Positions 22,704 to 28,927 of a stretch of 35,308 nucleotides of DNA are shown here, in pieces. The stretch covers positions 1 through 35,308 of the forward strand of contig JAFSBG010000101.1 in assembly GCA_017441945.1 (NCBI GenBank), given 5' to 3'. The DNA comes from Clostridia bacterium. Its GTDB lineage: Bacteria > Bacillota > Clostridia > Oscillospirales > Butyricicoccaceae. Under the pieces are notes generated by a model that saw nothing but the letters and a program-made list of their open reading frames with translations, did not search any database and was not told the DNA's origin. Position 1 is the stretch's first letter. Each line of letters opens with the position of its first letter. The translations under genes were made by a program, and so were the position numbers.

Positions 22704-22791
22704 GTCACCTTTGGTGACGCGATATATTTGCAGAGCAAATACGATATATAAATGCGATATGTCCTGTAGACGCGATATATTTCTGCGAAAT
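22704..22791 (-). repeat. ATATCG-linked hairpin array upstream of gpsA
   Basis: In gene sense (minus), small hairpins are separated by ATATCG linkers. In plus coordinates they are ATTTC/GAAAT (22779-22791), GTC/GAC (22761-22771), ATTTGC/GCAAAT (22726-22740, loop AGA) and GTCACC/GGTGAC (22704-22718, loop TTT). The last hairpin ends about 15 bases before the gpsA ribosome site. It is the most degenerate of three such arrays. Confidence 0.75.
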
Positions 22792-22821
22792 ACTAAAGTG
22801 TGAGTCGCATTGAAATAAAAT

Positions 22822-22915
22822 TCTCTCCCTCCGCCCTTTGGGCACCTCCCTCCTCAGAGGGAGGCGAGATGGATTGTGCAAACCGCAGGAAATTCTTCGC
22901 TTCGAAATGATAGGA
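22822..22915. repeat. CCTCC/GGAGG repeat followed by degenerate GATTCTTCGC repeat
   Basis: CTCCCTCCGCCC/GGGC hairpin and CTCCCTCC...GGGAGGCGAG (22822-22867), then AAATTCTTCGCTTCGAAATGA (22889-22909). Confidence 0.65.
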
Positions 22916-25314: not shown

Positions 25315-26613
25315 TTACAAATTTGCCAGGGTATTTACAAACTGCGCGCCGTCGATTTCGCACACAGTTATCTTGATGTCAAGTTCTTTTTCAATCTCCT
25401 CAAGTGTCACATCGTCAAGGAAAACAGTTTCGCCGTGACGGAGCATGACAACAGGGAGAAGTACATTCTTGTGGCAGTCGGCATTTTTAAGCTGTGAAAT
25501 AATATCACGGCCTGTTACAAGACCGGCAACCGTTACATTTTCGCCGTAGAAATCGTTCCTGATTCCCACAGTATTACATTCTAAATTATGCCATTTATTT
25601 CGGCAATAGTCAAGCATTTTCTCCATAAAAGGGGCGGCATCCATGCCTGTAACCACTGTGAATGGAGTTTTCGGTGTATTTTCTTCATAGTCGAGCTCAT
25701 CCTTCAGCTGATCCTCAAAAAGCGGCATGAGACCGACGCCGTTGTCGAGCTGTTCAAAATCCATATAATAGTCCACATCAGGGAATGGCAGATTTGCCTT
25801 GATGTAGAATTCGTCGGAGGCGTGGACGAGAGCTTCGCCGTGCTTTTCTTCGTTTTCCTTACGGAAGGAGTCGATGATTTCAATGCACTGGCGTGCGCAT
25901 TTTTCGTCCATCGGTGTGAGAGGATAAAGACCTTCTCTGTGCTTTGTAAGTCCGACAGGCACACAGGCGATGGAAGATACGCTTGGGTATAAATCGGACA
26001 GGTCACGGAGTGTCTTTTTAAGGTTTTCGCCGTCGTTTACGCCCGGACAGACGACAATCTGTGTCTTGATGTCAAGCCCTGCTTCGGCGAAGGTTTTAAG
26101 GTGACGGAGGGCATCGCCTGCAAAGCGGTTGCCCAGCATGAGCTTGCGCAGCTCAGGGTCTGTTGTATGGACAGAAATATTGAGAGGTGAGAAATGCATC
26201 TTGACGATTCTTTCTGCATCCTTGTCGGAGATATTTGTCAGGGAGATATAGTTGCCCACAAGGAAAGAAAGGCGCGCATCGTCGTCCTTGAAGTAAATTG
26301 TCTCTCTCATGCCCTTTGGATTCTGGTCGATGAAGCAGAAAATGCACTTGTTGTAGCAGCTCTTCTGCTCGTCCATAAGATATGTTTCAAAATTGAGACC
26401 GATATATTCGCCCTCATCCTTTTTTATATTGAAATGCAGCTTTTCGCCCTCTCGTTCAACTTCTATATCAAGCTTGTCATCATAGGTATAGAACTGATAA
26501 TCGAAAACATCTTCGATGCGGTGCTTGTTGACAGAAAGCAGAATATCCCCTGCTCTGATGCCCGCCTTTTCAGCAAAGCTGCCGTTGTCTACCGAGATTA
26601 TCTGTGCGCTCAT
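25315..26613 (-). CDS. DUF512 / PDZ-radical SAM family protein
   Basis: A 432-residue putative radical SAM enzyme of unknown substrate. The N-terminal 60 residues are a PDZ-like domain (SFAEKAGIRAGDILLSVN). They are followed by the cluster motif C86-x3-C90-x2-C93 in SCYNKCIFCFIDQNPKG and a TIM-barrel-like middle; the C-terminal DUF512 domain follows. The family is conserved in Clostridia next to der and plsY, as here. AAGGAGG precedes ATG 26613. The immediate upstream DNA is the hairpin array 26632-26752, whose last hairpin ends 5 bases before the ribosome site. No classical promoter was recognised. Confidence 0.9.
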   Translation of the reverse strand: MSAQIISVDNGSFAEKAGIRAGDILLSVNKHRIEDVFDYQFYTYDDKLDIEVEREGEKLHFNIKKDEGEYIGLNFETYLMDEQKSCYNKCIFCFIDQNPKGMRETIYFKDDDARLSFLVGNYISLTNISDKDAERIVKMHFSPLNISVHTTDPELRKLMLGNRFAGDALRHLKTFAEAGLDIKTQIVVCPGVNDGENLKKTLRDLSDLYPSVSSIACVPVGLTKHREGLYPLTPMDEKCARQCIEIIDSFRKENEEKHGEALVHASDEFYIKANLPFPDVDYYMDFEQLDNGVGLMPLFEDQLKDELDYEENTPKTPFTVVTGMDAAPFMEKMLDYCRNKWHNLECNTVGIRNDFYGENVTVAGLVTGRDIISQLKNADCHKNVLLPVVMLRHGETVFLDDVTLEEIEKELDIKITVCEIDGAQFVNTLANL

Positions 26614-26631
26614 GTGTTTCCTCCTTACAGG

Positions 26632-26752
26632 TTTTGCTTACGCAAAAACGATATAACGCCTGTGCGTTACGATATGCTGCCATGCAGCACGATATTCGCC
26701 TTGCGGCGAGCGATATGTTTGCTGTGCAAACATTGATGTGTGATAAATCACA
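26632..26752 (-). repeat. ATATCG-linked hairpin array upstream of the DUF512 gene
   Basis: Six hairpins; the five nearest the gene are joined by ATATCG (read in gene sense). Plus coordinates: TTTTGC/GCAAAA (26632-26647), TAACGC/GCGTTA (26654-26669), TGCTGC/GCAGCA (26675-26689), TCGCC/GGCGA (26696-26709), ATGTTTGC/GCAAACAT (26715-26733), TGTGAT/ATCACA (26739-26752). Stem sequences differ, but every one of the five linked units closes its 3-4-nt loop with GC...GC or CC...GG, and the unit length is about 20 bases. Confidence 0.85.
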
Positions 26753-26763
26753 TTGAATAGATC

Positions 26764-26815
26764 AACAACCCCTCCGTCACACATTTGTGTGACACCGCCC
26801 CTTACACAGGGGAGG
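26764..26815. repeat. CCTCC/GGAGG palindromic repeat
   Basis: ACCCCTCCG, hairpin TCACACA/TGTGTGA, then GCCCCTTACACAGGGGAGG. Same family as 985-1035. Confidence 0.7.
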
Positions 26816-27129: not shown

Positions 27130-27633
27130 TTATTTCTTTAAAAGCTCTGCGAGCTTTGCAAGCCTTGGGTCGATCTCTCTTGTTTCGCAAGAGCAGGTCG
27201 TTTCATTTAAATCGCATCCGCACTTAGGGCAAAGACCTTTGCAGTCTTCCTTGCACAGATATGCGATATCGATATCCATAATAATATCAGGCACGATGAT
27301 ATCGTCTGTTTCGATCTCCTCACTGCCTGCGTAGTACATTCCTTCTGTCTCCTGCCCTTCATCTTCACTTTCTGTGCTGATGAGGTAATGCATTTCCTGA
27401 GTTTTATCCACAGTAAACTCCTTCATGCATCGTGCGCAATGAACTGTCAGTGTAAATTCGGCTTTGGCATCAAACGTTACCACGCCTGCTCTGTCTTCAA
27501 TGACACCACTTACCTTTATTGGGGCTTGAAAAGGAAACTCATAGTTGACATTTTCGCCAGATAAATCTATACTATATTCAAAAGACTTTGAATGTGTCTG
27601 GCTCTGCGCCAGAGACTTAAGACTGATTAACAT
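27130..27633 (-). CDS. yceD: YceD/DUF177 family protein (large-subunit rRNA accumulation)
   Basis: A 167-residue DUF177 protein. Family members help 23S rRNA accumulate and are normally cotranscribed with rpmF, as here. The family core CARCMKEF (C66, C69) is present, and the C-terminus has an extra cysteine-rich segment (CKEDCKGLCPKCGCDLNE) that is typical. I start at ATG 27633 because AAGGTGG lies 6 bases upstream; the longer frame to 27690 runs through the promoter at 27662-27690 and is rejected. Confidence 0.9.
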   Translation of the reverse strand: MLISLKSLAQSQTHSKSFEYSIDLSGENVNYEFPFQAPIKVSGVIEDRAGVVTFDAKAEFTLTVHCARCMKEFTVDKTQEMHYLISTESEDEGQETEGMYYAGSEEIETDDIIVPDIIMDIDIAYLCKEDCKGLCPKCGCDLNETTCSCETREIDPRLAKLAELLKK

Positions 27634-27661
27634 ATTGCACCACCTTATTGATACAAAGAGT

Positions 27662-27690
27662 ATTATAATCGTTTTGACCCGTTTTGTCAA
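27662..27690 (-). promoter_or_regulatory. Sigma-A promoter of yceD-rpmF
   Basis: Minus strand: -35 TTGACA (27685-27690), 17-bp spacer, -10 TATAAT (27662-27667). Full consensus. Confidence 0.88.
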
Positions 27691-27826: not shown

Positions 27827-27836
27827 TATTATTAAA

Positions 27837-27953
27837 TGTGACTTGTCACACCTCATCGTTCCGCAGGAACATATCGCTCGCCGTCAGGCGAATATCGCAC
27901 TGCTCAGCAGTATATCGGGTGCGTAAGCACATATCACTTTTGCGTCAGCAAAA
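27837..27953 (+). repeat. ATATCG-linked hairpin array upstream of the rluC-like gene
   Basis: Hairpins in order: TGTGAC/GTCACA (27837-27850), GTTCC/GGAAC (27858-27870), TCGCC/GGCGA (27878-27891), ACTGC/GCAGT (27899-27911), GTGC/GCAC (27919-27930), TTTTGC/GCAAAA (27938-27953). Linkers are ATATCG, ATATCG, ATATCG and ATATCA. The first hairpin is followed by CACCTCATC, a motif of the other repeat family. The last hairpin ends 4 bases before AAAGGAG of the next gene. Confidence 0.85.
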
Positions 27954-27970: not shown

Positions 27971-28927
27971 ATGAAATCTTTTACAATATCTAAAAACGAC
28001 AGCGGACAGCGCCTTGACAAATTCGTTCTCAAGGTCTGCCCTTCCCTGCCGACTTCACAACTCTATAAATATATACGCTTAAAACGCATAAAAGTCAATG
28101 GAAAAAAATGTGAAATCGCATATAAATTGGCTGTGAACGACCTTGTCGAGATGTATATCAACGATGAATTCTTCGAAAAACCTGACGAAAACACAGTTTT
28201 TATGAAGATAGATCCGAAACTGGACATTGTTTTCGAAGATGAAAATATTTTGCTGGTCGACAAAAAAGTCGGCATGGTTGTCCACGAGGACGACGACGGC
28301 ACTACTGATACATTAATAAATAATATAAAGGCATATCTTTACAAAAAGGGCGAGTGGGACCCTGAGAAGGAAAACAGCTTCACGCCGTCCTTGTGTAACC
28401 GCATCGACCGCGGCACAGGCGGCATTGTAATTGCGGCAAAAACTGCTGCCGCCCTCCGCATTATGAATGAGAAAATAAAAAACCGTGAAATGGAGAAATA
28501 TTATCTCCTGCTCTGCTTCGGCAAGTTCAATAAGAACAACGGCACTGTGAAAAACTTCCTCTTAAAAGACGAAAAGCAGAATAAGGTCTTTGCTTACAAC
28601 AGCCCTAAACCGGGGGCAAAGACGGCTGTTACACACTACAAAGTTCTCGGCTACAAAAAGGGTATATCCCTTGTGGAATGCCGTCTGGAGACCGGCAGAA
28701 CCCACCAGATTCGCGTTCACATGGCAGGCCTCGGCCATCCTCTCGTCGGCGATACAAAGTACGGCACAAACAAGCAGAATCAGGGCTATCCATATAAAAA
28801 TCAATGTCTCTATTCCTATAAGCTTGGCTTTGACTTTGAAGGCGACAGCGGCGAGCTCGAGTACCTCAAGGGCAGAGAGTTCACAGCCGAAAATATTTAT
28901 TTTATGGAATTTTTTGAAAAACTTTAA
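27971..28927 (+). CDS. RluC/RluD-family 23S rRNA pseudouridine synthase
   Basis: A 318-residue pseudouridine synthase: N-terminal S4 RNA-binding domain (about 10-60, SGQRLDKFVLKVCPSLPTSQ) followed by the RluA-type catalytic domain. The catalytic aspartate is D146 in CNRIDRGTGG (usual form HRLD..TSG). The later LETGRTHQIRVHMAGLGHPLVGDTKYG region is a strong family match. AAAGGAG precedes ATG 27971. The TSG serine is glycine here. Whether the target matches RluC or RluD sites is not clear. The upstream leader is the hairpin array. Confidence 0.92.
   Translation: MKSFTISKNDSGQRLDKFVLKVCPSLPTSQLYKYIRLKRIKVNGKKCEIAYKLAVNDLVEMYINDEFFEKPDENTVFMKIDPKLDIVFEDENILLVDKKVGMVVHEDDDGTTDTLINNIKAYLYKKGEWDPEKENSFTPSLCNRIDRGTGGIVIAAKTAAALRIMNEKIKNREMEKYYLLLCFGKFNKNNGTVKNFLLKDEKQNKVFAYNSPKPGAKTAVTHYKVLGYKKGISLVECRLETGRTHQIRVHMAGLGHPLVGDTKYGTNKQNQGYPYKNQCLYSYKLGFDFEGDSGELEYLKGREFTAENIYFMEFFEKL

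Follow-up and report, generated by a model that had tools for sequence, protein, structure and literature searches.

The window analysed here, a stretch of 35,308 nucleotides from a member of the Clostridia, contains a gene for a PDZ - radical SAM - DUF512 protein (25315..26613, - strand) and, outside that gene, an element built of short hairpins that we call copy A (26632..26760, + strand). Copy A consists of five hairpins, H1-H5, four (A/G)CGATAT linkers and a 3' module, TTGATGTGTGATAAATCACATTGAATAG. On the + strand, H1 (TTTTGC-TTAC-GCAAAA, 26632..26647) starts 6 bases from CCTCCT at 26620-26625, the complement of the DUF512 ribosome site, and is followed by H2 (AACGC-CTGT-GCGTT, 26655-26668), H3 (GCTGC-CAT-GCAGC, 26676-26688), H4 (TCGCC-TTGC-GGCGA, 26696-26709) and H5 (GTTTGC-TGT-GCAAAC, 26717..26731). 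The linkers, in order ACGATAT, ACGATAT, ACGATAT and GCGATAT, occupy 26648..26716 (+) together with H2, H3 and H4, and CGATAT starts at 26649, 26670, 26690 and 26711. The 3' module (26733..26760, +) carries a sixth hairpin, H6 (TGTGA-TAAA-TCACA, 26739-26752), joined to the row by a linker unlike (A/G)CGATAT, and directly after it lies a second dispersed repeat, F2 (CCCCTCC..GTCACACATTTGTGTGAC..GGGGAGG, 26769..26815, +). CGATAT is found 50 times in the window against 16.9 expected. Read in the sense of the DUF512 gene, the reverse complement of the + strand, the linker becomes ATATCG, and a first-pass annotation had described five hairpins joined by ATATCG at a period of about 20 bases. This description was confirmed by the four linkers at 20-21 bases; the 3-4 nt loops that it gave also hold, while the arms of H1-H5, all of them perfect, are 5-6 bp long and do not reach the upper end of the 5-8 bp it had reported. 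The folding energy of copy A is, taken alone, weakly unusual (z -1.75), and no promoter or terminator of its own is visible at copy A.

The row in copy A is one of about 55 copies of a dispersed modular repeat in the genome, not a leader peculiar to the DUF512 gene. Two of the others lie in the window: copy B (27831..27953, - strand), beside the ribosome site of a pseudouridine synthase gene (27971-28927, + strand), and copy C (22704..22825, + strand), in which the third hairpin is replaced by a constant ATAAATG and whose array is identical to that of the sister genome G001. In the source genome (G000; 2.26 Mb, 184 contigs) a strict triple-linker pattern gave 48 matches, with 0 for a reversed-pattern control, and parsing yielded 56 arrays, including one or two chance GATAT runs inside genes; the copies themselves sit outside genes. 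Exactly four linkers, that is, five hairpins, are present in 70 of the 89 distinct arrays of the genus. Across the genome arrays, 80% of 138 internal units have a perfect stem that is 4 bp or longer, as opposed to 6.7% of shuffled units (maximum 11.6%), which upholds the earlier claim that fold and linker are constant while the stem sequence is free. The 156 perfect triloop hairpins comprise 121 distinct sequences, and 20 units carry the constant ATAAATG instead of a hairpin.

The two DNA strands of the arrays are not structurally equivalent. Perfect triloops read on the GCGATAT strand are TTC (35), TGC (28), TTT (23) and TGT (11), as against GAA (0), GCA (0), AAA (6) and ACA (2), and stem mismatches are A.C in nine cases and G.T in one (two-sided binomial, about 0.02), an A.C mismatch corresponding to a G.T wobble on the other strand. 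Both biases point to the ATATCG strand, which the first-pass annotation had read, as the structurally favoured, folding strand. C(GAA)G and C(GCA)G are the loops that occur most often on this strand, and GNA loops closed by G-C pairs form extraordinarily stable DNA mini-hairpins (PMC4686876); the loop and wobble biases are compatible with both RNA and single-stranded DNA. Loop inversion at the hairpins, a candidate prompted by CTTTG/CAAAG pairs, was ruled out by the strand-biased loops (TTC 35, GAA 0).

The H1 end of the arrays abuts a gene, either past a stop codon (23 arrays) or where a gene of opposite orientation begins (32); gene calls near the arrays were made with a simple codon-usage script, and a few of these neighbours are probably misassigned. 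In 19 of the 23 stop-abutting arrays the first linker begins 15-22 bases past the stop codon, and at the other end of the arrays further repeats follow at variable distance. For just 32 of 55 arrays does the favoured strand coincide with the mRNA strand of the gene that they abut. The arrays thus obey no orientation rule, and the fixed gene orientation that had been expected gives way to a mixture (32 and 23 arrays). Intrinsic terminators were considered and rejected, as only 2 weak sites were detected where 1.0 is expected and their tails are not T runs. Elsewhere in the window, around the start of a YceD gene (27545-27690), sigma-70 type promoter matches were noted on both strands, 12/12 on the - strand and 11/12 on the + strand.

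Most arrays close with a 3' module of the form GGTGT-hairpin-ATTTAATAG. The same GGTGT-hairpin module ends arrays built on the linkers ATGAATTG, GATTACATAC, GCTAAATT and GTGAAAT/ATGAAAT, so that arrays of several linker types belong to one superfamily. Two dispersed repeats, F2 (CTCCCTC type) and F3 (GTAGGG type), often directly follow the module. At one locus (L107:805-1007) two arrays lie head to head in both G000 and G001, and a second sister genome, G002, keeps just two inverted 3' modules there (L079:7291); module and array are therefore separable. With regard to the terminal inverted repeats of MITEs, the genome copies are one-armed, and of 19 two-armed GCGATAT elements from named gut and rumen Clostridia, 11 have an inverted copy of their outermost arm in the centre, where about 0.01 is expected. 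The centre copy could pair locally or across half of the element, a use that we infer. The source genome also has a TGATAT-linked two-armed array, CCGTTCC..GGAACGG, with the arm repeated in its centre (L100:9320-9464), and a similar TGATAT-type two-armed array lies beside Gut-1 in another family (L054:~1800-2000).

Gut-1 was described from human gut metagenomes and put down as a likely non-coding RNA (Weinberg et al. 2010, PMC2864571); Rfam files it (RF01706) as type 'Gene; sRNA'. The Gut-1 covariance model matches copy A at 26646-26721, and full-length alignment of the model (1-77) scores 33.7 bits on copy A and 32.0 on copy B, with a cut-off of 50. It finds 23 places in the source genome, two of them above the cut-off (62.4 and 59.9 bits) at loci other than copies A and B. 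Across the order, the model matched in 126 of 295 genomes and 70 of 149 genera sampled, with up to at least 15 copies per genome, and in 0 of the 20 listed genomes from other genera of the window's family; the distribution is thus patchy. In other families, a two-armed element about 270 bp long is present at the best-scoring loci. In 17 of 20 such loci (L049-L059 and L061-L066, one per genome, from different families) a tRNA or tmRNA gene lies just 5' of the element and, where both ends are readable, that gene ends about 30 bases before it with a terminator between. The genes concerned include those for tRNA Tyr, Trp, Gln, Pro, Val, Leu, His, Gly and Ser, as well as tmRNA, and despite these differing tRNAs the adjoining element is about 85-98% identical among most of the genomes. 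The Gut-1 relatives look more like mobile DNA than small RNA.

Comparison of G000 with its sister genomes G001 (about 95% identical) and G002 (about 85%) revealed turnover of the arrays; all are draft genomes, and at the main sites an array was called absent from contigs that align on both flanks. At the copy A site, G002 has no array and G001 has a ATGAATTG-type array, followed by the 3' module, mostly common to it and G000, and by F2, common to both. The orthologous DUF512 genes therefore do not share the 5'-leader that the first-pass annotation had assigned to this gene. G001 covers 32 of the sites: the array is shared at 26, a ATGAATTG-type array stands in its place at 3, there is none at 2, and at one (site 38) G001 has lost H2-H4 between linkers; with 26 of 32 sites shared at 95% identity, movement is not fast. 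Of seven sites, only one, that of copy B, is common to G002. There H4-H6 are kept in G002 while H2 and H3 are entirely different hairpins, and in another array a unit present once in G001 is found in G000 as three identical copies in tandem. The larger changes to arrays go by whole units, swapped or deleted at the linkers. Alignment of the sister genomes revealed indels, with no target-site duplication and no clean empty site, every polymorphic site being a repeat mosaic.

Smaller changes were followed in 22 arrays of equal size shared by G000 and G001. Stems contain 13 one-sided changes and 2 double changes, and about five hairpins have been replaced, indicating that compensatory change does not maintain the pairing on this time scale; the covariation anticipated among orthologous stems did not appear over these arrays, none of which is the copy A site. 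Divergence is 1.82% in stems, 2.6% in loops and 0.19% in linkers (the last figure biased by detection), compared with 4.96% in the left flank, which is mostly coding, and 7.46% in the right 100 bases. The slow stem and loop divergence, which is to be read with the fetching of the G001 regions for containing arrays in mind, suggests constraint or homogenisation rather than junk, both being possible.

The genome encodes at least five RAYT-like proteins. Inside four of the coding sequences (L031:1459-1953, L032:1279-1782, L033:1228-1842 and L034:1252-1800, on C180, C162, C102 and C30 of the source genome) an inverted pair of REP-like hairpins, GTAGGG... and ...CCCTAC, was observed about 150 bases apart, that is, a REPIN within a transposase gene. 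The hairpin of the L034 gene has 11 exact recurrences in the fetched loci of the genus, a number that may include the gene itself. The L031 gene, for its part, lies between two nearly identical terminator hairpins (ACCACCTTTTACAGGTGGTCTTTTT, L031:1440-1990), as if inserted with duplication. A pattern scan of viral contigs for a viral origin of the arrays returned 120 stretches from very diverse records, probably chance given the size of the collection, and this candidate was dropped.

We favour, with moderate confidence, a reading in which the array is one of the dispersed copies of a Gut-1-like hairpin element, modular and non-autonomous, that moves or recombines at the DNA level. Its copies are numerous and near-fixed in layout, are polymorphic for presence, and have swapped hairpins and lost or duplicated units; an enzyme, a single-stranded intermediate and a choice of target would complete the picture by inference. 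Each copy would comprise about five short hairpins, a type-specific 7-nt linker, here GCGATAT, and the closing shared 3' module, and would spread and be remodelled as DNA. During replication or transfer, the ATATCG strand may fold as single-stranded DNA into hairpins with C(GNA)G-type triloops, whose shape, along with the unpaired linker, could be recognised by an enzyme that leaves the stem unread. Hairpin cassettes may then be traded at the linkers, which would act as points of exchange. The array beside the DUF512 gene is probably a passenger, which may incidentally be transcribed in the leader.

Other explanations place the function of the array in RNA. The one originally proposed, a DUF512 5'-leader in which ATATCG platforms serve to bind a protein or to slow ribosomes, suits an array that lies directly upstream of the ribosome site in DUF512 sense and whose favoured folding strand is ATATCG. 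As a gene-specific device it is largely refuted and now barely credible, given that neither sister genome has an array of this type at the DUF512 gene, one having a different type and the other none, that about 55 copies lie beside unrelated genes in both orientations, and that stem changes are mostly one-sided. A general RNA-level element that benefits transcripts and is for that reason retained at gene borders, such as an mRNA stabiliser, a processing site or a terminator, is unlikely, but does better. It would account for H1 starting a few bases from a stop codon in 19 of 23 arrays or else abutting a ribosome site, for shared arrays diverging more slowly (1.82%) than flanking coding DNA (4.96%), and for the strand-biased loops. 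It sits poorly with a favoured strand that matches the mRNA of the abutted gene in 32 of 55 arrays only, with the lack of a T run (2 terminator-like sites, 1.0 expected) and with the turnover of sites, and tight gene spacing may merely reflect insertion into short gaps. Gut-1 and its relatives might instead be small non-coding RNAs in their own right, in line with the Rfam classification ('Gene; sRNA') and with the original assessment (Weinberg et al. 2010, PMC2864571). We find this very improbable for elements that occur as dozens of diverged copies per genome, whose orthologous copies swap hairpins, whose best-scoring representatives begin only past a tRNA terminator, and which at copy A have no visible promoter or terminator of their own.

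The remaining alternative also operates on DNA: the arrays would be a REP/REPIN family driven by the RAYT (Y1 HUH) transposases of the genome. Besides the presence of the RAYT-like genes, it is favoured by the structure of REPs, which are hairpins with a 5' guide tetranucleotide, GTAG or GTGG (PMC6006769), and by co-occurrence, since a RAYT profile matched 41 of 126 genomes with Gut-1 and 24 of 169 without it in a set of 295 (P 2e-4, with no phylogenetic correction). RAYT is nevertheless absent from 85 of the 126 Gut-1 genomes, and Y1 transposases as a whole (PF01797) are not associated with Gut-1 (P 0.23). The REP guide is absent 5' of the hairpins, where the linker is GCGATAT, no GATAT arrays were seen beside the three RAYT genes inspected, and a different, GTAG-tagged repeat fits the RAYTs of this genome better than the GCGATAT arrays do. 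These observations make a RAYT driver improbable, and no mobilising enzyme for the array element was found.

If these repeats are DNA elements, as in the reading that we prefer, an Rfam 'small RNA' family needs to be re-filed, and automated structured-RNA searches in these genomes will keep yielding false regulators. Gut-1-type repeats occupy many intergenic regions in Clostridia of the gut and rumen, but hardly any literature deals with them, and we found nothing specific on such arrays beyond Gut-1. The combination of free stems, fixed linkers and strand-biased triloops would offer a natural system for sequence-independent recognition of hairpin shape by an enzyme. As a tentative and rather doubtful extension, the Gut-1 superfamily might constitute a new kind of mobile element made of sequence-free hairpin cassettes, in which reading is confined to the unpaired linker and the fold of one strand, different linkers correspond to different enzyme specificities, cassettes are exchanged at the linkers as single-stranded DNA, and one lineage targets the 3' side of tRNA and tmRNA genes.

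Among known systems, Gut-1 (RF01706) has, like the arrays described here, short hairpins in tandem that are free in their stems and joined by a constant unpaired linker of 7 nt. The arrays differ from it in having (A/G)CGATAT in place of the GTGAAAT (GUGAAAU) linker, in scoring below the curated cut-off, and in being one-armed, with a shared 3' module and no adjoining tRNA gene. REP, REPIN and BIME sequences with their RAYTs (PMC3116915, PMC6006769) are likewise intergenic palindromes arranged in mosaics, with a hairpin and a short 5' single-stranded guide; the present arrays have no GTAG/GTGG guide, their palindrome is not conserved, and their hairpins form co-oriented rows instead of inverted pairs. 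The repetitive and double hairpin elements of mitochondria (PMC2800124) also invade the spaces between genes, sometimes in tandem, but they belong to an organelle and have no linker family, and in sponges their stems are kept while loops vary, whereas here the stems vary. By architecture alone, the arrays resemble the BOX elements of pneumococci (PMC3049150), which are modular, high-copy, intergenic and MITE-like, fold into hairpins, and combine conserved ends with a variable inner module and nesting with other repeats. BOX modules, however, keep their sequence, whereas in the arrays nearly every hairpin differs and the linkers alone are fixed.
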